64,000 nucleotides of DNA, taken from positions 9,443,001-9,507,000 of the forward strand of contig NC_065874.1 in assembly GCF_933775445.1 (NCBI RefSeq), in the 5' to 3' direction. Positions 11,984 to 58,652 of this stretch are shown here, piece by piece. Under the pieces are notes generated by a model. The model had not been told where the DNA came from. It saw nothing but the letters and a program-made list of their open reading frames with translations, and did no database searches. This DNA comes from Argentina anserina (Eukaryota > Streptophyta > Magnoliopsida > Rosales > Rosaceae). A program made the translations under genes and the position numbers. Every line of letters starts with the position of its first letter. Positions within the stretch are counted from its first letter, which is position 1.

Positions 11984-14443
11984 TAGGGCTCGTCAACGGG
12001 CCGGGTTCGGTCTGGCCCGGCCCATGAGTGACGGGTCCGGGTCCGGGTCCGGGTCGGATCGGGCCTTAATAAATTTAAATAAGTGGCGGGCCGGGTCGGG
12101 CTGGGTATTTTCAAAAATACGAATATCCAAGCCCGCCCACCTAAGGCGGGCCTTGCGGGCTTTTGCGGACTGGGCCGGGCCTTACGGGCTTGTATTAGAA
12201 AAATAATTTTAAGGGTTTGAAACAATAAAAAAATTGTTAGAAAACATTCCAAAACAAAAGTCACAAAAAAATTCTAGTTTCGAAATATTATCGATCGACA
12301 CCAATAGATGTGATCGATATATATATTTAGGGACCGTGTAAAAATCTCATCCAATTCGGACCTCGTTTAACCGTCGGAATTTTCGGTCAACAAAAAAAGA
12401 AGCGTTTTCACATAATAAAATCTCATTGACCGGGGCTTTGCCAAATAGATTTCTTCAGCTCGACCGCGCACGATAGGTAACAAAAATAAGGTGATTTCAA
12501 ATATGTAAACAAATTTCCACATTCGCATCTTGGTAATTGGTCCCCCCTTAGGGCATATTAGTGTTGTTTTTGGTTTACCGGAAATTCCGACGGTTAAACG
12601 AGGTCCGAATTGCATGAAATTTTAAAATTATCATTAAATATATATATTGATAACATCGGATAGTGTCGATCGATTCCAATAAGTTTCCTTCATATAGTCG
12701 CTTCATAATGTGATAGTTTTATTATACACCTAATATAAGGTTATAATACATTAGTGGACACTTCGGCGATCGACAACTCCAATTCAAAATATGGTCGATC
12801 GACACCAGTAGATGTGATCGGTATATATATTTAGGGAACCCGTAAAAATTTCGTCCGTTTTGGACATGGTTTGACTGTTCGTACCAACGGTCAACTAAAA
12901 AAGAGGCGTTTTGACATATTTAAACCTCATTGACCGGGGCTTTGCCAAATATATTTATTCAGTTCGACCGCGCACGATAGGTAACAAACATTAGGTGATT
13001 TCAAATATGTAAATAAATTTCCACATTCGCATCTTGGTAATTGGTCCCCCCTTAGGGCATATTAGTGTTGTTTTTGGTTTACCGGAAATTCCGACGGTTA
13101 AACGAGGTCCGAATTGCATGAAATTTTAAAATGATCATTAAATATATATATATATTGATCACATCGGATGGTGTCGATCGATTCCGAGAAGTTTCCTTCA
13201 TATAGTCGTTTCGTAATGTGATAGTTTTATTATAAACCTAATATAAGGTTATAATTCATTAGTGGACACTTCGGCGATCGACAACTCAAATTCAAAATAT
13301 GGTCGATCGACACCAGTAGATGTGATCGGTATATATATTTAGGGAACCCGTAAAAAATTCGTCCGTTTTGGACATGATTTGACCGTTCGTACCAACGGTC
13401 AACTAAAAAAGTGGTGTTTTGACATTTTTAAACCTCATTGACCGGGGCTTTGCCAAATAGATTTATTCAGTTCGACCACGCACGATAGGTAACAAAAATG
13501 AGGTGATTTCATATATGCAAATATCTTTCAGTATTCACATATTTGTAAGAGGTCCTTCCTTAGGGCATAATAGTGGTGTTTTCGATTTACCAAAAATTTC
13601 GACGGTAAAACGAAGTCCGAATTGGATGAAATTTTTACAGGGTCACTAAATATATATACCAATCACATTGGCTGGTGTCGATCGATCCCGACAAGTTTCT
13701 TTCATATAGTCGCTTCATAATGCGTTAGTTTTAATATAAACCTAATATAAAGGGTATGATACATTAGTTGACGTTTCGGCGATCAATAACTCTAGTTCAA
13801 AATATGGTCGATCGACACCAGTAGATGTGATCGGTATATATATTTAAGGAACCCGTAAAAATTTCGTCCGTTTTGGATATTGTTTGACCGTCCGTACCTA
13901 CGGTGAACAAAGAAAAAAACGTTTTGACATATTAAAATCCTCTTTGACCGGGGCTTTGCCAAATTGGTTTCCTTGGTGCGACCACACACAATCGGTGAAA
14001 AAAATTAGGTGATTTCAGATATACAAACGACTTTTGGTGTTCGCATTTTAGTAATGGGTCTTCTCTTATGAAATATTAGTGTTGTTTTCGGTTTACCGGA
14101 AATTCCGACGGTCAAACGAGTTCCGAATTGGATGAAATTTTTACAGGGTCACTAAATATATATACCGATCATATCTAATGGTGTCGATCGATCCCAAGAA
14201 GTTTCCTTATTATAGTTGCTTCATAATGCAATAGTTTTATTCTAAACCTAATAAAATATGTATGTATAATATTTTATTATTTGGCGGGTTTTTACGGGCC
14301 GGGCCGGGTTTCACACCTATAATTTAAGCCCGGCCCTCTACCCACGGAAGCGGGCTTTCTCGCGGGCCGGGCCGGGTAAAAGCCCGTCGGGCTTGCGAGC
14401 CTCCGCTGGCTTTTCGGGTCCGCGGGCTAAATGATGAGGCCTA
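11984..14443. mobile_element. Non-autonomous hAT element (2.46 kb) with 8-bp TSD and tandem internal repeats
   Basis: The left end reads TAGGGCTCGTCA; the right end, read inward on the other strand, is TAGGCCTCATCA. CCTTTAGG flanks the element on both sides (11976-11983 and 14444-14451), a perfect 8-bp target-site duplication diagnostic of hAT transposition. Both subterminal regions are GC-rich runs of GGGCC/GGGTCC, about 100-200 bp each. The centre is four tandem units of about 505 bp and contains no transposase. Long open frames over the GC-rich ends (around 11968-12264) are low-complexity and not genes. Confidence 0.85.
12291..14275. repeat. Four tandem units of about 505 bp inside the hAT element
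   Basis: tcgatcgacacca starts at 12291, 12795, 13303 and 13808, spacings of 504, 508 and 505 bp. Every unit repeats the same order: (TA)n stretch, ttgaccggggctttgcc, a gcgcacgata-type or diverged block, ccgacggt(t/c)aaacgag, a second (TA)n stretch and gtgtcgatcgattcc. The first three units are most alike; the fourth is more diverged. TCGATCGA palindromes mark both ends of each unit. Confidence 0.9.
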
Positions 14444-22273: not shown

Positions 22274-23105
22274 TGTTCGAGCTGGGAAAACGGATCATCC
22301 TCAGAGAACAATCAGCAAGCCCCGGTGTCGAACCCTAGACGGATCGACCCTTCGTTCTCTGTTGTTGCTGGCGTGCCAGTACCTTTGAGTTAGGTACAAC
22401 TCTTGCTTTGTTTGATGATGATTGTGCTCCACGTATCGTCTTCTTCTCAAACGATTGCTCCGCAGTTGCTGATAAACCGCTGAAGTTCGAATGACCTATA
22501 CATAACCGGAGTTGCTAGGTACCTTTCACTCCACCTCAAGTAGATGGCCGATCTTACTTTTGACCGCTTGGGGAAAAACAGAGCTTATACTGTGTCGTTA
22601 ATAGCAGGACTCTCTCGCGAATGAGATTTGCTGACTAGTGCAGACTTTATTTTTGCTAGAAGCTAGGCTAGCGACTCGATGGACTTGACTCGAATTGCCG
22701 AAGTTAACCGGACTTGTTGCTACATGCAACGCGAGGCGTGCATCTGGGTAGCTCCGCTCCGATGGGAGACTTGGTTGCCGAAGCGAATCAGACTTTTACT
22801 ATGTGGAGAGATTTTGACTATGCGGTTGCGTGATAGTTTGTTTGACGTTGCGTTTGTTATTCTGTGCATTCAACCCGTTTATATAGAGAACACAACTTGT
22901 TCTTTCTTGCGAATTAAGTCTTGAGAACCTCCTAGTTGATTTAGATTCACATTCCTTAATCAACTTCGATTCTATACCACGACAGTCCCCTAAATCTATT
23001 CCAATACGGCAGGTAATCTTGCTTTGTGATATACTTTCCCCAAATATCCGGTCCACGAGCCTAAGTAGTCTAGATAATACCGGAGTATTATTTTAGGCCC
23101 AAACA
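22274..23105 (-). repeat. 3' LTR of the Tat element
   Basis: 832 bp, starting TGTTCGAGC and ending CAAACA on the plus strand. I count about 32 mismatches against the LTR at 36865, many of them C/T or G/A, so roughly 96% identity by eye. A minus-strand TATATAAA at 22885-22878 matches the promoter position in the other LTR. Confidence 0.93.
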
Positions 23106-23374
23106 TTGCCCCCAGGCCTTGAAATTGAGGACCCCACGAAATTGAAAAGGGGTAGAAGAAAACCCCAAACGGTTATCTTTTTAAAATAATCCGAAACGCT
23201 TTACGTTCCCCCGTTACCAACTGACGCGCACCTTCACCTCAAACCACTACAACCTTTTTTACTGAAATACGCGAGAAACACTTACTGTTTCAGAAACTCA
23301 AACCAATTCCAATCGAGCAAACGTAACTCTTCCCCGAACCCGTCAGTTTCGATTTCAGAAACCCCTTCAGTTCC

Positions 23375-23383
23375 TATTTAAAT
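23375..23383 (+). promoter_or_regulatory. Candidate TATA box of the antisense PMD gene
   Basis: TATTTAAAT lies 104 bp upstream of the ATG at 23479 and 270 bp inside the LTR border. The antisense gene could therefore have its own promoter within the element rather than depend on the LTR. Confidence 0.45.
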
Positions 23384-23478: not shown

Positions 23479-26400
23479 ATGGCCCCAAAACCCAACCAAC
23501 GTGATGCCCAGACAGGTGCAAGACTTCTTCGCGATTATCCAAACAACGAACCCACCAATCGTACCACCATCGGAGTGATTGACGACAACACTGTGTTCTT
23601 GGGCCCTTCTCTTGCCGGAATCCCACAGTGCATCAACACTGACTACCACCACCGCTTGCGAACTCCTCCGCTTGCTTTTAGGAACACCCCGGCCACCTTC
23701 CGGAGATGGCAAGTGCACAGTCACCATGATACCCCTGTCGGAGCATGGCCCATTATTTCCGAAGCCATGCAATTATGGTATGCAAGTCGCCGCTTGATTG
23801 ATCGCGACATCTGGAAAAGCGGTAGGATTCTTGGAAAGTATCGACCTCTCCTTCAAACTGACTCAGGATGGAGGCAACAGATGTGCCATTATGACTGCTG
23901 CTTGCTTCTGGAATTCCGCAAGTAATACCTTCGACTTTCAATTTGGTCAAATGAGTATATCTTTGCTAGACATATATGCTATCATAGGTCTTCCAGTTGG
24001 TACCAGGCCCTATAGAGATCAGGATTATTTTGATGCTGAGTGCCCGGTCACCGCCACTCGCGACGTTGGTATCTACCAATCATATGGCTCCCGGGTTTCC
24101 AGTTTTGATCGCAACCATACTGCTAAAGCTGGAATCGCCTTCTTGGAATTCTGGCTAACTAAGTTCCTATTATGCTCCAACTCTAAGAAGATGACTGGGC
24201 ACCACCTGCAGCTCGCGACCCTTCTCTATAATGGCCACATTGTGGGTCTAGCACAAATAGTTCTGGCATAACTCTACCGTATGCTGCGTGCGCTCACCAT
24301 AGAACCCCTCAATTATCATAAGCTTTCAGGGCCTATGTGGATTCTAGACCTCTGGATCCAGGTTTACTTTGTACAACTGCGAAATGAAAACGCAAGGGAC
24401 TTCCGTCTAACAGAAGTATTGGGAAAAGCATTTGTTGGTTTGAAGCCCAACTTTTCTCTTCGCTACGCAACATGCTTCGAGTACTTCTACACCCTGGATG
24501 CCTCAGTTCTTGACTCCGCACAGCTGCTCCTAGACCGCACTCACCCTGATGCCATCCGAGGTGGCTTCTTAACCCTCCAACGCTATGATGGGGAGAGTCG
24601 GCATTTGTTTGAACAGGCTGTATCAATGGCGGACTTACCCCGACATCCCTGCAATGGAGTGGAACTCTATGCCCCCCATATATTCGTGAGGCAGTTGGGC
24701 ATGATTCAAATGGTTCCATTCCCTCCCATTGAGAGTCTGAACCTGTTTTCCTCATGGCGACGCCCCATGGTCCCCGTTGCTGACACTAATCCTGGGCACC
24801 AGCCCCCGTCTCAGTTGCAACCTACTGCCCTTCCTGTGATAGCAAGTGGGAGTATCCTTTGCTGCTTTCGCGTCGATAAAGCCTATCTTCAATGGTGGGC
24901 GAAGATCAACTCTGGCCAGTGGGAACAACGCTTGCGAGTCATCTTTCAATACATCTTCCAGACGGGGCTCAAAAGATACTTGCAAGAAGATCCTGAGGTT
25001 CCTGGTGATGAGGATTTGCTGCTGACAGTTATTCCAAATACTGTCAGAATCGTTCCTTCAAGGGTAAAATCCTAACGCCTCTTCGAACTCCTACAGTTCT
25101 TGTTTCAACACTGATTCAAAACCACTAACTAGTTCATGTTGTAGATTTTTGAGAATACAGCTGGTGCTTCCTCCTCCCAAGGCCATAAACGAGGGAGAAC
25201 AACCCCTAGCCCTAATCACGACGATGATGACCATGATGCCATAGACTTCAATCCTGTAAGTCCTCACCCATATTTGATTTTCTTAAAAGGTGTTAGTCGC
25301 TCGCCACTAACCGACATCTGTGACGTTCAACTGATTCAGCGGAGAAGAATAGCTGCCTCAGGCACCTCTGCCCCGCTTGCGATTGCGGCAATACCGCGTG
25401 CAGCAACCAACCAGGTCAACCCTGAACCAGTGACTGGGACCAGCAACCCAGAGACAACAATTGAGGTAAAAAGAACACCCTATTTGTTTCAACTGGTGAT
25501 ACCTTCATGAATCACTCTGGCTGATTCTTATCTGATTTGTAGGTTCGCGAGAACCCAACTTCACCACTTCCGTCTAACCCTCAAGCTGCAGCCATCGCGA
25601 TGGAAGACGTTGCCGTAAGTAGTCAAACACGTTGTTGCCCCCCAAAGCAACACTTTGTTGTTCGCTAAGATGTAGTTTCTTTAACCTATGTTGATCATTC
25701 GTGGATTGTTGATATCCTCCATGGTCTTTAACACAGGTTCATGTTGACGCTCAGTCGCCTACCACAGAAGTCGCGACCGCTATCCAACCAACTGTGGTTG
25801 TGTGCCAAGAACCCATTCAAGCCACTCCCCCTATCACAGTGGCAAGCACTCAGACCTTGGAGCCGCAAATATCAATCATCCCCATGGCAGTGCTCTCCTA
25901 CTCCTCTTCAACTCAAATTCTAGAGAATGAGGTAGGAGATGAAGAAGGTGTGACCAGCTCTCACCAAGAAGATGAAAATGTGGAGCGTCCCTTCGCGACT
26001 GCGGCCCCAGCGAGCCCTGATGTTGCACCGCAACCCCTTTTAGGAAACAATGCTCCCTCTTCTCATTCTGATGGGGTAAAACCCTTAACCACTTTCTGGT
26101 TTGTACGTTTCTACTCCTCGTTGTAAACACTTAACTGCTTTATTAATTGTTCTTTACTCTCTGTAGGTTGTGGCAATCGCGACTACTTCCAGCCTGTCAA
26201 TTGTGCCAACTGTTGGAGCCTCTGGTTCTACACCCGCTGTTAATCCATCTGGGAATTATCCTAGTCCCTCTCAGGAAGATCTTCTAGATGATATGTTGGG
26301 TCCGGCCAGCCCCTTAATGTCTCTAGAGTCTCAAGAACTTGTCCAGGCCCGGGCATAACTTGCGGAACTATCCTCTAAAGACCTAACTGATCCAGCTCGT

Positions 26401-26868
26401 CTGGGTAAGGTGAAAGACGCCCTTCGCTACCTTAAGCTACATTCACCTGATCCCAGCCTAGTCGCGAATGCTGAACAGGCACTGAATACCATTCTAGGCC
26501 TCATGGAAGAATGCCACACCTTGAAGAACCAATCTCAAAGTCTGTCGCAACACAACGCTGATGCTAGACAATTTATTACGCAAAGCCTTGCTCACCTTAA
26601 GACCAAGCTTCATCATGCCAAGACCAGCCGTTCGCAACAAATCAGTGCATTGCGGCAACAACTAGCGGAGCTTGAAGCTGAGCAAGCTAGAGAGCTCAAG
26701 GCTGTAGAGGAAGATATAAGAAGTATTGTACCCCAGATACAGGAGTGCAAAAGGCAACTGGCGGCTTCTGAGGCTGAAGAAAGGAGGCTCAACAACCTGA
26801 TATGCGACAAAGCTAACGATACTGGAAAGCTTCTCTTAGATATTCGCCTTGTTGGGCATAAGATGTAA
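23479..26868 (+). pseudogene. Antisense plant-mobile-domain (PMD) gene with six introns inside the Tat element
   Basis: A plus-strand gene opposite to gag-pol. The first exon runs from the ATG at 23479 to 25063. Further exons are 25145-25255, 25340-25465, 25543-25614, 25737-26075 and 26167-26868; with the first counted as one block this gives five visible introns, and the frame change near 23820 may hide one more. All five introns (81, 84, 77, 122 and 91 bp) are GT-AG and phase 0. The PMD (aminotransferase-like plant mobile domain, PF10536 type) is read at FLESIDLSFKL, ACFWNSASNTFDFQFGQMS and IYAIIGLPVGTRPY, then MWILDLWIQVYF and FPPIESLNLFSSWRRP. A low-complexity S/T/P-rich middle follows. 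The last exon (from about 26560) is a long charged coiled coil (QQLAELEAEQARELKAVEED). Breaks: a frameshift near 23820, an in-frame stop at 24269-24271 and one at 26356-26358. PMD proteins MAIN/MAIL1 act in silencing and genome stability in Arabidopsis; what the element copy does is unknown. Confidence 0.8.
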
Positions 26869-28213
26869 TTTGAATATCAATGTATTTTAGTAGTAAGACT
26901 TGCAACTTATCTCTGTCTGTTCCTCTTACTCGATTCTCCTTGACTCATCAAAAACCCAACTACAGGCCCATGACCCGAGCCCAACTCAACTCATCACCGT
27001 GTAAGTTTGCATGCAAACCCTCGTAAACAGGAGGAATCAATACTGGAAAACGCACAAACCATTTCAGGTTGACCATTATTGCTGCAATAAATCTCGGGTG
27101 TGATCTCCAAATCCGTATCTCTAATCTCAACCCTTGAATCCAAGTTCCTTCTGCTATAAAATGAAACCCTAAGGAAAGAACACACCAGGCTTTCTTCCGC
27201 AGCCTCCAACCATGTCAATCCTATTTCTTCCTTCAAAACCCCCTAGGTTTCTTAAATTTCATCCCCCAGATTTGCAAACTCAATAGCAATTTGTGAGAGC
27301 CTTATTCTACCCTCAAATGTGAGGTGGGAGTCTTATTTCACCCTCACATCCTCCCTTTTTTGTAGTTCAACACCGGGGATCTGCCCTGCATTAAGGGTTG
27401 TTCCTAGTGAAGGATTGCAAGTGAGAGAGGAAAATGCAGTCCTTCCTGCGGCCTATTCATCGATGTTTAGTCGCCGAGCATCGGGAAGCAGGCTGCCAAA
27501 TTCAGGACTAGAGCCAATAGGTACATCATGCTCGTCACGTACCTCTTTTGATACGCGACGCGAGCGGTTGTACCTCTCATATGTAATACCCTCCAATCTC
27601 CCTTCTTTGAAGGAACATCAGGAGAAGTTTACAAATCAAGGCTCTGGATCCCTCATGCTACCACCAGTTTTCCAATTAGAACCTATGTGTGGCACCAAGC
27701 TGGTTCCAGTCGGTCCTCAACTGGTGCAGTTTAATCTCAAGTTTATCGCGGTGGTAGGATGAACAAGAGGCATCGCGAAGACCTTTTCACCTAGCATAAA
27801 TGGTATCAGAGCTTGTTAAAGCTCACCTGTAATAGTATAGATCTTGTATGAAGTTTCTGGCCACAAAGCCATATGAATAAAACACAATTTGTTGCATAAA
27901 AACACTTGAACTGTTTTATTGCTGCGTAACCAAAGTTACAAGCAATTCTGGACCACAAATATTGGTCCAATGTGTTACAAAAAATGACGGAGCACGATTA
28001 AGAAACTCATAAAGTTTCAGAAACTCGATAGTTTCAAAAAAAAATTTCCGGGCTCGCGAACTCACCAATAGGAACGTTCGCGACCGTTAGTAATGTTTGC
28101 GAATCGAGAAAAGTTCCTGAGTTCGCGATCGCACTGAGTAGCCATGGTATTGCCCCCCCTGTTTACTTGGTTGAAAGAATGGAACCCAGGAACACACTAA
28201 GCCCGAACACCAA
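26869..28213. other. Spacer between the antisense gene and integrase
   Basis: Contains a TATA-like gctataaaatg near 27145 (+), a plus-strand open frame 27319-27762 without a recognisable domain, and TGGTATCAGAGC at 27801-27812. The last is identical to the initiator-tRNA-Met primer site of many plant retroelements but has no LTR next to it. The remainder shows nothing I can name. Confidence 0.4.
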
Positions 28214-29713
28214 CTATGCTGCTTGCACCGCAGCCGGTGGATCTTCATACTCCCAAACACTAGGAAAGTACTTAAGATGGCGGCCATTCATGAGATTTCT
28301 ATGAACATTCCCATTAGTGTCGTGAAGGTAATAGGCGCCTTTGCCCATTACTCGATTAATCACAAAAGGACCTTCCCATTTAGCAAACCATTTACCGCGA
28401 CCATCAACTCACTCACCATAAGGCAAACAGGCTTTCCAAACTAAGTCCCCAACTCCAAAGCTGCATCCTCTCATGCGTTTGTCATAAAGCCGTGCTATCT
28501 TTTTCTTCTCGGCAATAAGGCTGTCGAGAGCTTCCATCCGGCGAAAGTCTAAGTCCTCATGTTCTTGAAACATAGCTTGAACATAGTCCTCACCAATCAA
28601 CTGATGTTACTCGCGAACCCTCAGCGACTGAACATTAATTTCCATAGGAAGTACCGCATCATGTCCATACATCAACGCATAGGGTGTAGTACCAGTTAGA
28701 GTACGTTTGGAAGTTCTATAAGCCCATAATGTGTGATCCAACTCTGTGTGCCAAGATCGCGGATTTGCATCCAACATTCGTTTGAGTATAGACATAATGA
28801 CGCGGTTGCTAGCTTCTGCCTGGCCGTTCGCTTGGGCATAATAAGGACTAGAATGCATAAACTTTATCCCATAGCTAGCTAAGAACTTCTGGGTCTTCTC
28901 AGCCATGAAACCTACCCCCCTGTCTGCAACCAAACACTCTGGAATGCCATACCTGGTGATAATATATTTGAAGATAAAGTCTGTGATCACCTCTGAAGAT
29001 GTCGTTCTGACTGGTATGGCCTCGACCCACTTGGTGAAGAAATCTGTAGCCAGTAGAATGTGCTTGTGCTGTAAGGAAGAATTGGGATGAATCTCCCCAA
29101 TAAAGTCTAAAGCCCAACCGCGACCTGGCCAAGGTTTAATGATTGGTTGCAGAGGAACGTCAGGCATATGCTGGACTGGCCCATGCATTTGACACTCGAT
29201 AAAACCCTGCGCGAAGCTGATGCAGTCCTTAAGCATGGTAGGCCAATAAAAACCATATCGGCGAATGAGCCACCGCATCTTTGGACCAGCTTGGTGAGAA
29301 CCACAATTGCCACAATGAACCTCGCGTAAGCACCTCGTAGCCTCAGCTACATAGATGCATCGCAGGTACAAGCCATCTTCTACCTTGCGCAATAGCTCAC
29401 CACCTCTAAGGACATAGTTAGTAGCAAAATATCTAACTCTCTTATCTACCGGTGCAGAAGGATCAGTGAGGTACTGGATAATCGGTTGCCGCCAATCTAC
29501 ATCAATGGGATCAATAACCGCTACCAACCATTCATCGTTAACCTGTTTCCTTGCCATAAAGGAAGGTAATGTGCGTCTCTGAACCTTCAAAATCCTCTCG
29601 CGAACGCCATCTGCCAAGCGAATGCCCGTAGCCAGCTGTGCTAATTCATTGGCAGTGAAATTTCGTTCTCGAGGAATATAGTCAAGCACCACGTCTGCAA
29701 ATTGCTCTAACAA
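28214..29713 (-). pseudogene. Integrase of the Tat element
   Basis: Minus strand, entered just after the second RNase H. It holds the zinc-binding HHCC region (CGSHQAG ... FIECQ) and the DDE catalytic core: first D in ALDFIGEIH, second D in VADRGVGF (families usually have DNG at this place), E in NGQAEASN. The C-terminal GDLVWK and KWFAKWEGPFVI segments run to a stop at 28216-28214. In-frame stops at about 28607 and 28409 interrupt it. Established role: inserts element cDNA into chromosomal DNA. Confidence 0.88.
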
Positions 29714-29728
29714 TTCCGATGCTCGCTC

Positions 29729-30721
29729 TTAAAAAGGGAGTAATGTAAAATTGTTGCACTTATAGACACCCTTGAGCTGATTAATAACTAGGAGTGAATC
29801 ACCTAATATCTCTACCTCGGTGACCTCCAGATCAAGCAACAACTCCAGGCCAATGATGATGACCTCATATTTTGCCTGATTGTTAGTGCACTTCCATTCT
29901 AGCTGAAAAGAGTAACAATGTCTGACTCCGGAAGGATTAACCAAAGCAACACCCGCTCTGGACAAATGATCAGTGCTGTTACCATCGAAGTACAGAACCC
30001 AAGGCTGAGTGTGAACGAAGGAAACAACCACGTTCTGGTCTTCAATGTCCTCCATAATAGGATGATGCAACAAAAAGTCGGACACTGCCTGTCCTATGAG
30101 CGCCTTTAAGGGTGTATACTGTAAAGAAAACTCTGATAACGCCAAGATACACTTACCAATCCGACACCGAAGCATAGGTCTGGTAAGCATATACTTCACT
30201 AAATCGGTTTGCGCCACCACCACTGTAGTGAAGGACAACATGTAATGGCTGAGCTTAGTACCGGCGAAGTACAAAGCTAAACACAATCTCTCAATCGGCG
30301 AGTATCTAGTTTCAGCGTCTAATAAGGTTCGGCTCAAGTAATAAACTGCATGCTCAATCTTCTTGCCCCCCTCTCCATCACCATCTTGTGCTAAGAGTCC
30401 TGCGATTGAATAAGGGGACGCTGAGATGTAGAGCTTCAACGGAACTCCAGGCAGTGGGGGTCGAAGAACCGGTGGATGAGTAAGGTAGTCCTTGATTTTA
30501 TCAAAAGTTGCCTGTTGCGCAGGTCCCCATTGAAACTCTTGATATGCTTTAAGCTTCAGCAAAGGAGAGAAGACTGCGGTTTTGCCAGCGGAATTAGAAA
30601 TAAAGCGTCGAAGGAAGTTTATTTTCCCAAGCAAACTCTGAAGTTCCTTCTTGTTCCTTGGTGCCGGCGTGTCTAGAACCGCTTTAGCCTTATCTTCCGC
30701 GACCTCAAATACCTCTTTCAT
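29729..30721 (-). pseudogene. RT-linked RNase H plus additional RNase H of the Tat element
   Basis: The first half (about residues 10-220 of the frame) is RT connection plus RNase H (NKKELQSLLGKINFLRRFI, WGPAQQATFDKIK, LYISASPYSIAGLL, with S where a catalytic D is expected). From residue 241 (plus-strand 30001 to 29729) comes a second, separate RNase H: WVLYFDGNS, NNQAKYEV, EILGDSLLVINQLKG, with D, E and D at the catalytic positions. A degenerate first RNase H followed by an intact-looking second one is the Tat/Ogre hallmark. Confidence 0.88.
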
Positions 30722-31688
30722 GCACTATGAAACCCAGGAAGTCTTCTGCTCGGGTTCAACCTGAGCTTATGCTTTCTCATCCTGGTGAACACTGTCCGCA
30801 AATTCTCGATGTGATCTTCTTTCTTCTTAGACTTGACCACCACGTCATCAATATATACTTTGAGAATGCCCCCCAACACATCGTGAAAAATCAGGTTCAT
30901 TGCTCGCTGGTATGTAGCCCCCGCGTTGGTCAGAGAAAATGGCATATTGTTATATTCAAACACTCCAGTGAACCCTGGACACCGAAATGCTATTTTGTGT
31001 CTATCTGGTTCATAAACAGGAATCTGGTGGTAACCAGCTGTGCCGTCAATAAAAGATAGTAGTTCATGCCCTGCGACCGCATCGACCAACATATCTGCCA
31101 CGGGCATGGGGTAGACATCTTTTCATGTCGCGGTATTCAGATTCCTGTAGTCCACACACACGCGAATCTCGCCATTTTTCTTCCGTACCGGTACTATTTT
31201 GACAACCACTGAGAATATTTGGCTGGTCGGATAATACCGGCTTGGAACATGTTCTGAACCTCTTTCTTGACTCCTGCTGCTGTTTCTGCACTCATTCATC
31301 GTGGACTTTGTTGTACAGGCTTGTACCCTTCCATGATGGGCAAGCGATGGCAAACCAAGTCTGGTGACAAGCCCGGCATGTCCTCAAATTTCTCAGCAAA
31401 GCAATCGCGGAACTCGTGCAACAATTCCACCAAACGTTGTCTCAGTTCCTCATCCAAGTGTTTACTTATTCCAACCTCCATGGGCTCTTATGTAGTCCCC
31501 AGGTTGATCTTTTCCACTGGATCCTTCACTTTAGGTGGAGTATCATCCAAAGCTGCTGGTGCCGGTGGAACAAACTCCTCCTCTGCTTGAATTTCAGTCA
31601 AATCATTCTCAATGCACTCAACTAGTGCCACTGCCCCCCAAGCCTCCTGTTCCTCTCTATAAATAGGTAAACGTTGGAGAAAGGACAC
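30718..31688 (-). pseudogene. Reverse transcriptase of the Tat element
   Basis: Minus-strand pieces in order: EELRQRLVELLHEFRDCFA, RKKNGEIRVCVDYRNLN, SFIDGTAGYHQIPV, FEYNNMPFSLTNAGATYQRA and the catalytic VYIDDVVVKS (plus-strand about 30833-30862). Frame changes near 31490-31350 and around 30720 and an in-frame stop show decay. Established role: copies the element RNA into DNA in the cytoplasmic particle. Confidence 0.88.
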
Positions 31689-31989: not shown

Positions 31990-33150
31990 GTGTAGAGTAG
32001 AAGGGATGCAGTAGGCTCGATGTATCCAATCCCTACCCAGTATGATGCTGTATGGAGCGGTGCAATCTGTAACGAAGAATGTCTGAAATAGCTCAGAAGG
32101 TCATATTTTGACTTTGAGGATCAAAACCCCCAAGGTCTTAGTTAAGTTGCCAGCAAAACTCCTGACCTTGAGATTGCTACTGAGAACCTTTTCCTTCGTA
32201 ATGCCAAGTGCTTCGACTGTTTTCACTGTAATGATGCTAACTGCTGCACCACCGTCGACAAGGATTTTGTTCACTCTCTTACCCTCCATCTCAGCTGATA
32301 TGTACAAAGGTTTAATGTGCTGAGTCATGGTCGCTGTAGGCTTTGTGAACATCATAAAGAATCTTTGGAGCTCTGTCATCGTGTGAGATTTATCAGCTCC
32401 CTCTTTCCTCGAGTCCTTCCCAACAGTTGGCACCTCTATTGGTGACAACTCCGCGACTGTACCCACCTCTTGGGCCTGCGTCTCACCTCCAATGAATAGA
32501 TGAGATGGCATTGGCCGTGGAAGAGCATACTTCGAGGACAAAGTGAACACCATGTTGCAACTAGGAACACTGTCTAGCCTCGGTTTTCCTTCCTCAAAAC
32601 TATCTCCATGACAGAGGTTAAACATGTTGCAGTCTGGGGTAGCAGTCATCTCTTCATCATACCCCTGCTCTAGGTCGTCATCCGGATCAGACAACGCTAA
32701 CCCTTGCTCATTACCGCATGATTCCTCCATATCGTCATCCGACATGGACCCAGTTGGCGTTCGCGAGGGGAACTTGCTCCTGAGATACTCCGTTAGTGAT
32801 TGCTCCTGATGAGCCCTGGAAGGAATAACCACTGCCGCAGCCTCGACTTCCTCTGGAACCACGGATGTTGCCTTTTGCGCTGTTGGAACCACTAGGGCTG
32901 GTTCTTTGATCTTCAGTTTCCATTCAAACTGTGGCTTGGTTCTCTCCGGGACTGGTTCCTGATGGCCTGGCCTACTTACAGACCTTTTAGGCATCCATTT
33001 AGATTGCGCAGGTCGATCAACACTACTTCGCTGTTGTTTCTGTTGAATAGAAACACCCTGTGCGTGTTGTTTGTTTGTTGCTCTGTCATCATTAGACGCA
33101 TAAGATAACCTATCATGGATTGAAACTCTTTGTGTAGGAGCAGTTTCCAT
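31990..33150 (-). pseudogene. Aspartic protease region of the Tat element
   Basis: The active-site motif reads KILVDGGAAVSII, the Tat-type variant of D-S/T-G; a later ILGRDWIHRAYCIPS segment (about 32035-31990) is the conserved end of the fold. The region before it (33150 to about 32320) is an acidic linker. A frame change lies near 32100. The role is cleavage of the gag-pol polyprotein. Confidence 0.8.
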
Positions 33151-33162
33151 TGGTCGTTCAAT

Positions 33163-34412: not shown

Positions 34413-35133
34413 CAATGGTCTAAATATCAGTTATCGGCATCGTATCGGTTTTGGAAAATAAGGATATAACAGGGATATATCGAGATATATCGGATTATAT
34501 CGGATTTATCGTTTTTGTTAATTTTTAATTTAAATTTAATATATTTATAAACATATACTTCAAAATATTCAAAATATACCAAATAATATTAACTACTAAG
34601 TACTAATTGAACAAAAATAGGTGCACAAAAGATAGATTGAGATATTGATTATACATTCATGCATTATAAACTCTCTCATCATCAGAATCAAAGTCAAAAT
34701 CATCTTCTCCATTATCTTCATCCTCATCTTCTGAGATAAAATCATCTTCATAAATCACCTTCTGTCTATTTGCGTTGAAATTCCTCAAAACGATATCGTC
34801 TCCTTAAAAAAAATCACCGAAAAAAAGTCACCAAAGAAAAAAGTCAACGAAAAAAAATTATCGAAAAAAATCATCGAAAAAAAAGTCTCCGAAAAAAAAG
34901 TCAACGGAAAAAAAGTCCACCAAAAAAAAGTCCACCGAAAAAAAAGTCAAACGAAAAAAAATCCACCGATATATCCCGATATATCCCGATATATCACCGA
35001 TATATCGCATGTTGACCCGATATTTTGAGTTGACCGATATATTAAGGCGATATGATATTTATCCTATCGGTTTCTAAATATCACCGATATATCGCCGATA
35101 TATCCCCGATATATCCCGATATTTAGAACACTG
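34413..35133. mobile_element. hAT MITE (721 bp) nested in gag
   Basis: GTTGTAGG flanks both sides (34405-34412 and 35134-35141), a perfect 8-bp TSD. The ends match as CAATGGTCTAAATATC and, inverted, CAGTGTTCTAAATATC. Removing the insert rejoins the gag frame around it (NTHKAPEILDELF). Inside are many ccgatatatc repeats near both ends and an A-rich minisatellite at 34806-34975. Confidence 0.88.
34806..34975. repeat. A-rich minisatellite in the nested hAT MITE
   Basis: About eleven imperfect copies of a 14-16-bp unit, aaaaaaagtc(a/c)(a/c)cg, in tandem. Flanking it on both sides are gatatatc repeats, so the element consists almost wholly of simple repeats. Confidence 0.75.
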
Positions 35134-35235: not shown

Positions 35236-36843
35236 TCAAGCTATCTCCACAGCAGCTACTTCATCATCTACTTGCTCGACCCACTGCTTTTCGTATGGAT
35301 ACGGTGTGTAGAAAGGATCTACATGCGAGTAGATAGTGGAAACCCTCTTAGTCCCCGATGGAACTGCATAGCATGGTTTCAAAGTTCCAGAGTGATAGGA
35401 CACATGTGGACCTTTTGGAACTGTAGCACTGTCCTCCATCTCCCTAAGGAACACTTGGTAAGAACCTACCTTGTTCATTAAACCTGCCATGCTAGAAAAG
35501 TAGGTATCATGATGTTTGGCTCACTGACGGGTCTCCAAACCCTTTATGGCGATGCGAATGGCATCATATTCCACAAGCGGTGTTCTGCACTTTGCTTGCT
35601 GCACCTTGAACCTCTTTAGGAACTCCACTGCCGACTCCATTGGCTGTTGATACATGGAAGTCAGAGATAACAAATCCACTTCAGGCTCAACACTTCCAAA
35701 AGTCGTTTTAAACATCGTCTCGAGCATAGACCAATCTGAAATAGACCCTGGTGCCAACTTAGAAAACCAAGACAGTGCCGGTCCTGACAATGATGAACCA
35801 AAAGCCCTCATCTTGAAGACTGGGTCAGATGCATATGGCCCACAATCACTGTGGAAATGCGATATATGCTCAGCAGCGTTCTCGAAACCCTCTCTTGAGA
35901 AAGTCTGGAACTTGATTGGACGATAACCCGAAGGCCAAGTACATGCTGACACCCACTCCGGGAATGGACTTGTATACGATATGTTCGTAGCAGCATGACC
36001 ATGAATGGTCCTCACACTTTCCTGGATCATCTTCTGAACTTGCTCCTTGGTAAGACTTTGACCTTCTCCTACTCCATGCTCAGACTCTTCTCGATGTTCC
36101 TCTCGCCGCTCGCGACGGAATTGATGCTGACGCTCTTGTCTTCCGCTTAGTTGAAGGAGTGTCAATGCCTTTTGTAAAGTTTCAACCTCGGGAGTGTTCG
36201 ACCGTCTGGAACCTCCAAGCGTGAACTTTCCCTTCTTAGCCTTCACCTTCTTCCTCCTTGCCCGTTTGACAAGCTCAGCATCTGAGTTGTCAACCTCATC
36301 ACCTCTAGCCTCGTCCCCTTCAGCGCCGTTGTTGATACCGGCTATATCTTTCTTGCTGGACCGAGCCTTTTTGGTGGCATTAGGCTTGTCATGGTTCTGG
36401 CTTTCGTAAAGCCCGGCGACAGTCCGTCGGATTCCCAACGCCTCTTCGATCTGCTTGAATCGCTCATCCTGGCCCGCGAACTCTAAGTGAGCATTCTTCG
36501 CGTGCTCATTAGCACCCAGAACCAACTTCTTCATCCTATCGTTGGTCTCAGCCAGACGCTGACCCTGTGTCGACTGTAATTGTGACACATTATCCAACGT
36601 TCTCTCAACTGCAATCATTCGATTTCCGAAAGACTCTTCCAACGACTTGACTACCGTCGTCAACTCTTTGAAAGCTAGTTGCATGTCTTCCGGTGTCGCC
36701 ATCACTCCAAACTTCAGTAATGCCTCGACCGCTGTTAAACCTCTGCAAGCCGCTGTGTTATGAGGAACACAATGCAAATGCTCTGGTTTCGAACAAGAGG
36801 GATATCCTCGCGAGTAAGGATTCCGGCTTGCTATCTTTGACAT
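35236..36843 (-). pseudogene. Gag N-terminal and capsid region of the Tat element
   Basis: Opens MSKIASRNPYSRG at 36843, directly after the primer-binding site; a second possible start, MATPEDMQLAF, lies near 36702. A coiled-coil and basic region (KRARRKKVKAKKGKF) is followed by the retrotransposon gag fold: FKMRAFGSSLSGPALSWFSK, WSMLETMFKTTFG, FLKRFKVQQAKC. An in-frame stop at 35523-35521 cuts it, and the same frame continues with SSMAGLMNKVGSYQVF to another stop at 35236. Role: structural protein of the cytoplasmic particle. Confidence 0.85.
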
Positions 36844-36864
36844 TGTCCCACTGGGCGTGCCAAA

Positions 36865-37696
36865 TGTTCGAGCTGGGAAAACGGATCCTCCTCAGAGAAC
36901 AATCAGCAAGCCCCGGTGTCGAACCCTAGACGGTTCGACCCTTCATTCTCTATTGTTGCTGGCGTGCCAGTACCTTTGAGTTAGGTACAACTCTTGCTTT
37001 GTTTGATGATGATTGTGCTCCACGTACTGTCTTCTTCTCAAACGATTGCTCCGCAGTTGCTGATAAACCGCTGAAGTTCGAATGACTTATACACAACCGG
37101 AGTTGCTAGGTACCTTTCACTCCACCTCAAGTAGATGGCCGATCTTACTTTTGACCGATTGGGGAAAAGCAGAGCTTATACTGTGTCGTTAATAGCAGGA
37201 CTCTCTCGCGAATGAGATTTGCTGACTAGTGCAGACTTTGTTTTTGCTAGAAGGTAGGCTAGCGACTCGATGGACTTGACTCGAATTGCCGAAGTTAACC
37301 GGACTTGTTGCTACATGCAGCGCGAGGCATGCATCTAGGTAGCTCCGCTCCGATGGGAGACTTGGTTGCCGAAGCGAATCGGACTTTTACTCCGTGGGGA
37401 GATTTTGACTATGCGGTTGCGCGATAGTTTGTTTAACGTTGTGTGTGTTATTCTGTGCATTCAACCCCTTTATATAGAGAACACAACTTGTTCTTTCTTG
37501 CGAATCAAGTCTTGAGAACCTCCTAGTTGATTTAGATTCACCTTCCTTAATCAACTCCGATTCTATACCGCGATAGTCCCCTAAATCTGTTCCGATACGG
37601 CAGGTAATCTTGCTTTGTGATATACTTTCCGCAAATATCCGGTCCACGAGCCTAAGTAGTCTAGATAATACCGGAGTATTATTTTAGGCCCAAACA
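36865..37696 (-). repeat. 5' LTR of the Tat element
   Basis: 832 bp, TGTTCGAGC to CAAACA on the plus strand. The minus-strand TATATAAA at 37476-37469 is the likely promoter of the gag-pol RNA. It is bordered by the primer-binding site at 36845-36864. Confidence 0.93.
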
Positions 37697-41329: not shown

Positions 41330-43359
41330 CAACTAATTTAAGAGTTAAACAAACCAGCCCCTCAACCATCTTAAGAGTTAGAGAAGCCCTAAAAGGATCT
41401 ACAACCTTTGATCCAAGGCTAAAATCTTATTCATAAGCCATTGTGGAATCCGGAGCAACAAATATGTCTTTAGCAATCTTGGATAGAATGGGATATCTTG
41501 ATGCATTTTCCTTCCACCAATCCAACAACTTGAAAGCTTTGTTTGCAGGGTCTTCAGAAGCCTCATTCAAGTACTTATCCACCTTATCCTTTATCTCCAC
41601 CACATCTTTTTGCTTCCTCAACTTCAGAAATTGGCTCATGGATGCAGCATGTGAGTCCTCCTCTCCAACTTCAAAGTTAGCTCCCATATCAGGGTTTGCA
41701 AGTTCACTAGAAGCTTGTGCAGCCACTGGATCAGAGATACAATACTCTGAATATAGGTGTGCAACTTCATCTTCACTTCTTCAAGTGACTCTTTCACCAT
41801 GTTCTTTTCTTCCTCCACGGTTAACCTCACTCCACTCTTCACCTTATGCATCTTAGGGAAAAAGAACTCAAGGTACAACAATTTATATCTTGGATCAAGC
41901 ATAACAACAAGTAGGAGGGCTGAATTGATATCCTTATTCCAATACTTGTCAAATTTTAGTTTCATGGCAATCCCTACCCTCACTATAATTGGATCAGCAC
42001 TCTTGATGCAATTTTTCAGCTCATCACAAATAGTACAAATCCATTGAATATACGGGTTTGAAGTAACTACCTTAGTCTCACTGAAACTAAGTATTGCATC
42101 GTAAAAAAATTTCAGAAATTTCACCAAGGTAGTAGCTTGCTCCCAATACTCCCTTGTTGGAGAACCAACTCTTTTTTTTTTCCCCTAACTCTCTCATTAA
42201 AATATCCATCATATAGTTGATCCTCATCATCAAGCCTTGAAAAAGCTTTGTTATACTTCACACTAACATCTAACATGAAATAGGTGGAGTTCCATTGGCA
42301 CAACACCACCCTTGTGTTCAACCTTCTCCGTAATAGCACACTGCCTAAACTTCTCCAATCTAGCAAGAGAGCTTCTAATATACTTCACAACATTCCTAAT
42401 CACCTCAATTGAGTCACTCAAATCCTCCATCCCATCCCTCACTATCAAATTTAAAACATGGCATCAACACCTAACATATAGGAACTGCCCTCCAAGCACC
42501 AAAGTCCTCCAATTCCCAATCTTCTCCCTCATGTAATCAAGTGCAACTTGATTACTTGAGGCATTATCAACCACAATGCTAAAAACCGTCTCAATACCCA
42601 AATTTAGCAAACATGACTCTATGGTCTGGAATTACAGTAAAGTTAATAATTCTCTTATGCAAGGTCCAAGACTCATCTATGAAATAGGCAGTGAGCACTA
42701 GGTAATTGATATTTGGACTGAAGTCCATGTATCAATGGTAAGTGACACCCTAGTGTTGGTCCTAGCCAAATACTCCATGATTGTTTCCTTTTCAGCAAGA
42801 TATAAATTCCAAATGTCCTTACAAATTGCCCTATGGCTAGGCACAACAAATTGAGGCTGAACAGTTTTCATGAAATCTTTGAACACATCCCCATCAACAG
42901 AAGAAAATGCTAATTCATCCCTAACAATCATCTTAGCAAGTGCAATCTTATCTCTATCAGGATCATAGGATCTAGCTTTAAGGTTACCTCCGTCCTCAGT
43001 AGAGTCAAAGGAAAGGTGCTTATGTTTCTTTGATGTAATATATGCCAGACACTTCATGCATTGGTACTTGTTGTTCCATTGCTCCTTGAATCACAAGCAT
43101 AAGTTTGGGGACAATATTTGCACTTGGCTCTCGGTTTCTGCATCTTTGAACCATCTGGATTCCTCAGCTTCACAAAGTGCAGCCACACCTTTGAGGCGTT
43201 CTTCCTCTTCACAACTTCTTCTTCACTGCTTGGTGGATCGCTAAGTGGTGTTGCAGATAGAGAATGAGGTATGAGTAAACGTGGTTCACTACTAGGAGTA
43301 GTTGAGGTTCCCATGGTTGATTCACTCAGACTTGGTGAAGGATTAGGTGTCTCTGACAT
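41330..43359 (-). pseudogene. Decayed hAT transposase (RICESLEEPER/DAYSLEEPER type)
   Basis: Minus strand. A BED-type zinc-finger region comes first (SKVWLHFVKL ... AKCKYCPQTYACDSRSNGT, about 43190-43065). The transposase body follows (QFVVPSHRAICKDIWNLY, VSLTIDTWTS with a catalytic-type D, HLFHVRC, LCQWNSTYFML, VMLDPRYKLLYLEFFFPKM). Last is the hAT dimerisation region (KLLDWWKENASRYPILSKIA, a stop at 41427, then DPFRASLT and MVEGLVC). Frame changes near 43057, 42700 and 42120 and the stop in the dimerisation domain make it non-functional. A terminus-like gttcgcccaccctta ends at about 43922; the other end was not found. Confidence 0.82.
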
Positions 43360-44978: not shown

Positions 44979-45365
44979 CCTATCCAGAGTGAAGTTCCAA
45001 TTTTGGCATACTTTTCGGTCAGATTTTTTCACCATAAGCGATTCAATATTTAGTTATGCTATTCAAGATCATCTCTATAAAGTTTCATCCAATTTGACAG
45101 TGATTTGAGCTTTCAAAATTGAGATTTACACAAACGGTTCACGTTGAACAGTTTTAATTCATTCATTGATTTAATCTAATTTCAATACCTTAACGATGTC
45201 TGAATTAGATGAAATTTTGTAGAGATGATCTTGAATAGCATACCTAAATATTGAATCGCTTATGGTGAAAAAATTTGGCTGAAAAGTGTGCCAAAATTGG
45301 AACTTCACTCTGAAACTTCAGAGTGAACCTTCACTCTGGATATGAACTGTATATATATATATATG
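44327..45365. mobile_element. Cluster of fold-back MITEs bordered by (TA)n tracts
   Basis: A half element occupies 44327-44525. A full palindromic copy covers about 44543-44950, ending with the inverted pair ggcttttct / gaaaagcc and tcttagcttaagatacgg / ccgtaccttaagctaag. Another covers about 44974-45348 (ctatccagagtgaagttcc / cactctggatatgaactg). All share a central taccttaacgat motif, have no open frames and lie directly in TA microsatellites. That insertion preference is known for Micron-type MITEs; family assignment here is inference. Confidence 0.65.
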
Positions 45366-45772
45366 CTTCTACGCCTTTTGAGTATAGCTTTGCAAGGTTA
45401 GAAACGTTAAATTGACAATAGTGATGGAGGACTGAGGAATTTGAGGACATAATTTATGAGTCATAACTATTGCGAAGTCAAGTATCACTTGGAGCTCTGT
45501 AATCTGCATATATAATACGTACCCTATGCAACAAACATTTCGCAATAAGCTCCTCATGATGCTTGTGAGCAGTGGCGGATCTATGAATTCAAAGCTGTCT
45601 AGGTTAATTTATATGAGGACACCAATTTTTTTTTTTTGAGGTTTGGAACCCAGTGGGAGGCTCATCCTCACGTATTTATTAGTTTCAATCAAAACATAGA
45701 CCGAGGGGAACATAAAACCAAACCTCGTAAATTGAAAATTACAAGCATCAAAGCGTTATACGCAACAATAAG

Positions 45773-46180
45773 CTACCTAAAACGTACCCTACGAGACCCG
45801 CTCAATTTAAACTCTGCAATCACATAATCATTATCAGTGCTATCGGCAAGTTCTTTTTCAATGTAGAGAACCATTAAATCATCAAGAAATTCATCTTTAA
45901 TTCTGTTTCGAAGTTTGTTTTTTATGATGTTTATAGATGAAAATACTCTCTCCGTTGTGGCTGTAGAAACTGGCAGAGTCAAAACAAGACAAAACAATCT
46001 ATAAATTATAGGAAAGAATGTTGATTTTCTTGACTCAACTAACTACCGACATAAATCAGATACAGATGTTGTGTTGGTAAATCTTGGATCCATCTGAATA
46101 TTTGCTAGAAAATACCCGCACTCCATATCTAAAGCAAGCAACTCATATGAAGTAAAATGAGCTGGATAGAATCTCATATT
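45773..46180 (-). pseudogene. hAT dimerisation-domain remnant
   Basis: Minus-strand reading MRFYPAHFTSYELLALDMEC, then QMDPRFTNTTSVSDLCR and a stop. It continues in another stretch through STFFPIIYRLFCLVLTLPVS to TATTERVFSSINIIKNKLRN and LDDLMVLYIEKEL, the conserved C-terminal hAT dimerisation domain. The start is cut by the nested MITE and there is no catalytic core. Its N-terminal counterpart type is found at 10686-10904, but these are separate insertions. Confidence 0.8.
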
Positions 46181-46183
46181 GGG

Positions 46184-46615
46184 GAATATATATATATATA
46201 TATACAGTCCATATCCAGAGTGAAGCTTCACTCTGAAATTATAGAGTGAAGTTTCAATTTTGGCACACTTTCCGGTCAAATTTTTTCAGCATAAGCGATT
46301 CAATATTTAGGTATGTTATTCAAAATCATCTCTACAAAGTTTCATCCAATTTGACAATGGTTTGAGCTTTCCAAAATTGAGATTTACACGAACGGTTCAC
46401 GTTGAACAATTTTAATTCATTTATTGATTTCATCTATTTTCAATACCTTAACGATGTCCAAATTAGATGAAATTTTGTATATATGATATTGAATAATATA
46501 CCTAAATATTGAATCGCTTATGGTGAAAATATTTGACCGAAAAATGTGACAAAATTAGAACGTCACTCTGTAATTTCAGAATGAAGCTACACTTTAGATA
46601 GAAACTATATATATA
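46184..46615. mobile_element. Fold-back MITE in a TA tract, nested in the hAT derivative
   Basis: Closely related to the copy at 44974-45348: it opens with catatccagagtgaagc, shares gcgattcaatatttaggta and accttaacgatgtcc, and ends cactttagatagaaac followed by a TA run. It interrupts the hAT transposase remnant, so it is the younger insertion. Confidence 0.72.
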
Positions 46616-46754
46616 TTTGATAGAAATTCAAAAAGAGGTTTTGGGAGCAAATCTTTTCTAGGCTTAAGCACAACTTACATCCGCCGCTACTTGTGAGTCT
46701 GTTGCGCGAGATGTTTGCCAAATATATCATTTGGTGGTTGCCTATATATATATA

Positions 46755-58333: not shown

Positions 58334-58652
58334 ATATAGGTCCTCACACAACTACTTTCATCATTCCCATGAAACAATTCCAAATTCATTTTCCTAAATT
58401 ACACATCCCCCCAAATTTTTGAACCCTTCATGTCCAATTCATTTCTTCTGGCATATCTAATAAGGGTGTGTATTCTTATTGATTATTTGAGTCTTTGAGC
58501 TATTCATTTCTGCTGCTACATTTCAGTCTCGCAGCTAATCAGCTGTGAGCTCACCATTCATTAATCACCAGTACTCCAGTCTTAGGAAAGTGCAGCATTT
58601 CCACTAATCGAGAAGCAATTTACTAGAGGCTACAAATTTGTTTGTCTAAAAA

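Follow-up and report, generated by a model that had tools for sequence, protein, structure and literature searches.

A five-intron plant mobile domain gene carried antisense in a Tat-lineage retrotransposon of Argentina anserina, with probable selection on its spliced product

We analyzed a 64,000-nucleotide stretch of the Argentina anserina genome (contig NC_065874.1, positions 9,443,001 to 9,507,000), referred to here as the window. It contains a retrotransposon with long terminal repeats (LTRs) and, opposite to the gag-pol region of this element, a plant mobile domain (PMD) gene at positions 23479 to 26868 on the plus strand. The gene comprises six exons and five introns and lies between the integrase and the 3′ LTR; on this, domain and LTR positions agree with a preliminary description of the window made from the sequence alone. 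Its ATG (23479) is 373 bases past the inner end of the 3′ LTR, and the TATA-like box described earlier is indeed present 104 bp upstream of the ATG (TATTTAAA in the window copy; 23375 to 23382, plus strand), outside the LTR. Exon 1 (23479 to 25063) carries the PMD (PF10536). Its piece 23798 to 24271 matched profile positions 19 to 155 with 39.2 bits (E = 6.4 × 10−10), above the cut-off of 34.9, and its piece 24272 to 25075 matched positions 157 to 346 below the cut-off (23.9 bits, E = 2.7 × 10−5). Together, the two pieces form a single continuous run of the profile. With the gathering score passed by one piece of a broken frame, the gene encodes a PMD protein, and the PMD motifs noted in the preliminary description are confirmed.

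Downstream of the PMD follow exon 2 (25145 to 25255), with a basic patch and an acidic stretch, the linker exons 3 (25340 to 25465), 4 (25543 to 25614) and 5 (25737 to 26075), and exon 6 (26167 to 26868), a helical, coiled-coil-like end with its stop codon at 26866 to 26868. The introns, all GT-AG and all in phase 0, measure 81 bp (intron 1, 25064 to 25144), 84 bp in the window copy (intron 2, 25256 to 25339), 77 bp (intron 3, 25466 to 25542), 122 bp (intron 4, 25615 to 25736) and 91 bp (intron 5, 26076 to 26166), and have an AT fraction of 0.57 to 0.65, compared to 0.42 to 0.52 in the exons. The intron positions given at the outset were borne out, and their splice dinucleotides are kept across copies (see below). 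That all five introns are in phase 0 had been called unusual; in our judgment, five such introns seem not rare enough to be remarkable. The statement that every exon keeps the frame fails for exons 1 and 6 of the window copy, since exon 1 has a 1-bp insertion (∼23.80 to 23.93 kb) and an in-frame stop (24269 to 24271) and exon 6 has a further in-frame stop (26356 to 26358). This copy is decayed and yields no full protein. Its intron 2 is open and a multiple of three in length and could be read through, judged from the window copy alone; in many other copies the length of this intron is not a multiple of three.

The host element lies on the minus strand. Its 3′ LTR (22274 to 23105, TG...CA) is paired with a 5′ LTR at 36865 to 37696, and the pair differs at 32 of 832 aligned sites (23 transitions and 9 transversions; Kimura two-parameter distance, 0.0397). 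At a rate of 1.3 × 10−8 per site per year, this dates the insertion of the window copy, and of this copy only, to about 1.5 million years ago. A polypurine tract, read directly on the minus strand, adjoins the 3′ LTR (23106 to 23120), and a probable primer binding site that starts with TGG, two bases inside the LTR end, adjoins the 5′ LTR (36844 to 36862). The gag-pol region is fragmented into pieces: gag (35521 to 36891; PF03732, E = 2.2 × 10−11), a protease region (32101 to 33162; PF13975, E = 0.00097, below its cut-off), reverse transcriptase (30718 to 31122; PF00078), an RNase H followed by a second RNase H (29729 to 30724; PF17919/PF17917 at residues 66 to 199 and PF13456 at residues 246 to 322) and the integrase open reading frame (ORF) (28607 to 29728; PF17921 and PF00665). 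Short tandem repeats occupy positions 34806 to 35122, between the gag and protease pieces.

The domain order is thus reverse transcriptase, RNase H, second RNase H, integrase. By the second RNase H beside the one that follows the reverse transcriptase, the host is a Tat-lineage Ty3/gypsy LTR retrotransposon, as the preliminary description had it. A second RNase H between RNase H and integrase is the criterion of the Ogre/Retand group in PMC6317226, and the host element therefore falls into this group. TRP28 (PF04195), whose antisense ORF marks Retand, was not among the families listed for six pieces of the PMD gene (E up to 10; for the last piece, 25 of 41 families), nor was it seen in 27256 to 27762 (E up to 0.01), the part of 26869 to 28606 that was searched. 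Since TRP28 was absent from the searched pieces and PMD is on record for Ogre, Ogre is somewhat likelier than Retand. Further marks of Ogre are a tRNA-Arg primer site and an intron region that separates the gag-protease ORF from the reverse transcriptase ORF; gag-pol of the window copy is in pieces. From the location of the gene in a gypsy element, we infer that it belongs in the PMD-A (gypsy) clade.

A DNA search of the 236.8-Mb genome (146 contigs) returned 44 matches at 40 places including the window, all of which were fetched and aligned. The frame, the intron positions and the TATA-like box, whose conservation the preliminary description had suggested comparing across the family, are common to these 40 copies where covered. 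The ATG is kept in 35 of the 37 copies that cover it. The TATA-like box reads TATATAAA in 32 of 37 copies and TATTTAAA in 3, and is otherwise altered or deleted in 2. Of the splice dinucleotides scored, 173 of 184 donors and 163 of 180 acceptors are intact (donors and acceptors, respectively: intron 1, 35/37 and 33/37; intron 2, 36/38 and 34/36; intron 3, 36/37 and 35/36; intron 4, 31/37 and 29/37; intron 5, 35/35 and 32/34). The 3′ LTR adjoins the gene in 36 of the 40 copies, and of 12 copies retrieved with a longer stretch for this check, 9 had integrase on the opposite strand and the other 3 had no match within the stretch retrieved; because copies were retrieved via the gene itself, elements that do not carry it fall outside both counts.

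Of the 38 copies that extend into the introns, not one has lost an intron cleanly. Whole introns are missing from three copies, only inside larger deletions, and a few others have lost part of an intron. This absence of clean loss is predicted if the introns are antisense to the element RNA, although as a test it is not strong. Copies differ in intron length by amounts that need not be multiples of three. Counting indels of up to 60 bp shared by at least 2 copies, we observed 6 in 2,934 bp of exon and 12 in 455 bp of intron, an approximately thirteenfold higher density in introns, with multiples of three making up 3 of the 6 exon indels and 3 of the 12 intron indels. An in-frame 21-bp deletion in exon 3 is common to 11 copies.

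To analyze selection, variants shared by at least 4 copies were contrasted with single-copy variants, using sites and codons with at least 20 ungapped copies and, for the ratio of nonsynonymous to synonymous variants (pN/pS), only variants that differ by a single base from the most frequent codon. Single-copy variant sites were spread evenly over codon positions 1, 2 and 3 (372, 345 and 361 of 977) and were as common in introns (166 of 435), as expected of decay after insertion. Shared-variant sites, by contrast, were concentrated at third codon positions (166, 143 and 351 of 977 at positions 1, 2 and 3) and numbered 113 of 435 in introns. We infer that the shared variants are mostly older than the insertions. 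Over all 977 codons, pN/pS was 0.212 for shared versus 0.813 for single-copy variants; the corresponding values were 0.142 versus 0.691 for exon 1, 0.543 versus 1.134 for exons 2 to 5 and 0.170 versus 0.863 for exon 6. The selection on the PMD exon about which the preliminary description had asked is therefore purifying. As a control made on exon 1 only, sliding the codon grid by 1 or 2 bases gave shared-variant ratios of 1.366 and 1.391 and single-copy ratios of 0.948 and 1.070. Taken exon by exon, from 1 to 6, the shared-variant ratio was 0.14, 0.24, 0.71, 0.77, 0.60 and 0.17, and inner windows of exon 6 ranged from 0.04 to 0.35 with a minimum in the last 65 codons (0.06 and 0.04). These ratios take variants as independent, and a transition bias also lowers pN/pS.

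Methylated sites mutate repeatedly, so that the shared class also contains some decay; the effect should be to raise the shared ratios, not to lower them. Exon 6 meets the PMD in frame only over five introns, and its constraint is the strongest sign that the spliced product existed and had a role. We conclude that the protein read across all introns was probably selected during amplification of the element. Of the refuting conditions set in the preliminary description, those that concern DNA (no other copies of conserved exon-intron structure, or neutrally evolving exons) therefore do not hold.

We thus consider it very likely, judging from these sequence comparisons, that the gene is a split, selected antisense accessory gene of a Tat-lineage element which encodes a PMD, a linker and a helical end. 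In the mechanism that we propose, the copied sense RNA would hold the gene as its complement, so that the introns would present no splice signals there and would be carried through every round. After insertion, transcription would start from the gene's own promoter beside the 3′ LTR, splicing would be performed by the host, and the product would be a protein of ∼977 residues. Own-promoter transcription is the mark of antisense accessory genes (aORF-3R), and in the window family its sign is the conserved TATA-like box.

Several observations weigh against this interpretation. No working copy was found among the 40 copies scored: all of them carry one or more in-frame stops, and among the 33 spanning the gene, 24 have a frameshifting indel and 9 have none. 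These 40 were scored out of 103 first-look candidates in the DNA search. The copies contain 149 stops in total, of which 105 arose by a simple C-to-T (80) or G-to-A (25) change from CAG, CAA, CGA or TGG codons, a pattern expected of methylated silent copies. A 1-bp exon deletion common to 5 copies and the recurrent stops are read as repeat hits at mutable sites and not as inherited damage, since the affected copies are scattered in a tree of 31 of the 40 copies. Three of the six shared exon indels shift the frame. Intron 4 has an altered donor in 6 and an altered acceptor in 8 of 37 copies, and splice-site columns carried a shared variant in 2 of 20 cases versus 108 of 395 for intron interiors, a difference that was not significant (P = 0.06). 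Exon 1 pN/pS is below 1 for single-copy variants, too (0.691), so that the two classes of variant are not cleanly separate. In a comparison with integrase based on 10 of the 40 copies (shared, at least 3), shared pN/pS was 0.018 for integrase, 0.143 for exon 1, 0.447 for exons 2 to 5 and 0.186 for exon 6; the accessory protein is less constrained than integrase. For single variants in these 10 copies, the ratios were 0.413, 0.438, 0.607 and 0.520, respectively, so that even these variants depart somewhat from neutrality on this measure. Finally, the split gene is known here from genomic DNA alone.

Database relatives provide a further view of the downstream parts. A protein search with the read-through piece returned 5 proteins, among them P0001 (1,001 residues, from a 3,306-base contig), which runs through all parts in the order PMD, linker, helix. 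Its contig could be either transcript or DNA, which again counts against the interpretation above. In the structural model of P0001, residues 517 to 788 form an unstructured linker and residues 859 to 1000 a single helix, with a mean predicted local distance difference test score of 47.2 and most of the PMD poorly modelled; this fits the helical end assigned to exon 6. The coiled-coil fusion had been thought unusual, which was not upheld: P0001 and P0008, a Rosa chinensis gene model, have end segments similar to that of the window gene (24 to 25% identity over 110 to 143 residues; E = 0.004 and 0.010, respectively, each in a single comparison). P0007, a contig ORF, is 77% identical to P0008 and has, soon after the PMD, 25 extra residues, from V to Q, at a position where P0008 is joined. 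At the protein level, these residues look like the translation of a 75-bp phase-0 intron that is open, close to the position of window intron 1. P0007 stops a few residues beyond an acidic stretch that resembles the one in window exon 2, and in P0006 and P0011 the PMD part closes with the same Q-V step, shortly after which both proteins end. Basic patches follow the PMD in window exons 2 and 3 (by eye) and in 4 of 9 relatives scanned (P0001, P0008, P0009 and P0011), several of the others ending too early; they would fit a nuclear protein and prove nothing.

The profile search returned 15 proteins, the named ones coming from Rosa, Rubus and Fragaria and the weakest from Arachis. A sequence search of PDB with the 15-row profile gave 3 matches, the best with an E value of 1.4, which were taken as chance. 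Among viral contigs, 78 stretches fitted a pattern, none of which was confirmed.

We weighed three other explanations. If the product ended in or near intron 1, the PMD exon alone would be translated and the downstream "exons" would be chance or relics. Five of the database relatives (P0002, P0006, P0010, P0011 and P0013) are indeed ORFs of 458 to 579 residues that end shortly past the PMD, and exons 3 to 5 are weakly constrained (0.60 to 0.77), which is also a point against selection on the entire product. However, exon 6, in frame with the PMD only via splicing, shows a constraint similar to that of the PMD exon (0.170 versus 0.142), strongest within exon 6 in the last 65 codons, exon 2 is constrained as well (0.24), and P0001 and P0008 continue through the downstream parts. 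An early end of the product thus appears improbable, and the five short relatives may be first exons only, in which case PMD entries may often be truncated gene models.

Even less probable is that a host PMD gene was recently captured together with its introns and is carried as cargo. The preliminary description had proposed that the element acquired a complete PMD gene, and the host-like split structure and the gene's own TATA-like box would fit such a capture. On the other side, PMD is widespread in Ogre (57%; PMC6317226) and, across 10 to 40 angiosperm species, in gypsy elements (PMC9289625), and the named relatives among the 15 profile-search proteins come from Rosa, Rubus and Fragaria. 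Since gypsy PMDs form old clades of their own (A1/A2; PMC5418596), recent capture is not supported by these published data. Least probable of all would be that the antisense transcript matters instead of the protein, through double-stranded RNA or regulation of gag-pol. Antisense RNAs of retrotransposons can act in this way, and PMC7264820 raises this for such genes. Yet the old substitutions track codon positions and amino acids and the introns vary more freely, which favors a selected protein; a transcript could act in addition.

To our knowledge, PMD has so far been treated as an additional ORF or domain of Ogre-type elements, one without a known function; such PMD-bearing ORFs of Ogre (Tat) elements were reportedly described by Steinbauerova in 2011. 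A spliced antisense gene of a retrovirus is HBZ of human T-cell leukemia virus type 1 (HTLV-1), whose protein is unrelated to PMD. Both HBZ and the window gene are antisense spliced accessory genes at the 3′ end, but the HBZ promoter lies within the LTR, whereas the TATA-like box of the window gene is outside it. The antisense promoter within the HTLV 3′ LTR is mentioned in PMC7264820.

Among retrotransposons, PMC6317226 records PMD for 57% of Ogre elements, and PMC9289625 for gypsy elements of 10 angiosperm species (40 if no filter is applied). According to PMC5418596, the members of clades PMD-A1/A2 are all encoded by gypsy elements and host PMDs belong mainly to B and C, with the direction of ancestry left undecided. 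The window gene resembles these in being a retrotransposon-encoded PMD in a Tat element, outside gag-pol; it differs in that the relevant passages of PMC6317226 and PMC5418596 describe ORFs, domains and clades, and not five introns and a selected spliced product. Grande gene23, a related nuclear antisense gene with its own promoter (PMC7264820), and Retand TRP28 (PMC11963269) share the antisense slot between pol and the 3′ LTR, but their protein domain is different. PMC7264820 urges attention to antisense and spliced transcripts, and neither PMC11963269 nor PMC7264820 uses the word "intron" in its main text. What is already known, then, is that Ogre elements can carry PMD and that an antisense accessory gene can have a promoter of its own. 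In the open-licence PubMed Central literature, judged mostly from listings, we recognized no split antisense PMD gene; as far as our searches reach, it is new for an antisense accessory gene to have several introns and to show selection on what is spliced from it.

The function of the protein can be addressed more tentatively. The host PMD-C proteins MAIN and MAIL1 are needed for silencing (PMC5418596 and PMC7156037); they are encoded by host genes, and the likeness to the window gene lies in the PMD domain. By analogy, it is possible, if rather doubtful, that the accessory protein is nuclear, self-associates via its helical end and helps element expression or integration, possibly meddling with host PMD (MAIN/MAIL1-PP7L) silencing; that the nuclear and anti-silencing steps rest on analogy is a further weakness of the overall interpretation. 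More speculative still is the idea that an old lineage keeps a multi-intron nuclear gene antisense, that its spliced PMD protein interferes with or redirects host PMD silencing and that MAIN/MAIL1 may descend from such genes.

If the gene is truly split, ORF-based surveys may catch only exon 1, as several database entries suggest, and overlook both the linker and the helical end, which is constrained. A further suggestion from this family is that a gene lying antisense can pass on its introns through retrotransposition. A selected protein of this kind would provide a test case for whether transposon PMDs preceded the host silencing PMDs or derive from them.

The remainder of the window holds several unrelated features. 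A single ORF at 58650 to 61328 on the plus strand encodes a nucleotide-binding leucine-rich repeat protein (Rx_N, NB-ARC, winged helix and leucine-rich repeats), the best relatives of which are an RPM1-like protein of Rosa sericea (77% identity, full length) and a Fragaria x ananassa protein (79% over 52%). Positions 12279 to 14264 hold a ∼504-bp unit repeated head to tail about four times, the copies being 80 to 87% alike and containing short inverted pieces, and a sequence of ∼375 bp occurs in direct (89%) and inverted (79%) copies at 44985 to 46616. A hAT-like transposase fragment (PF14372) is located at 41636 to 42184 on the minus strand, and an ORF at 1303 to 1845 on the plus strand resembles, by eye, a piece of polygalacturonase.

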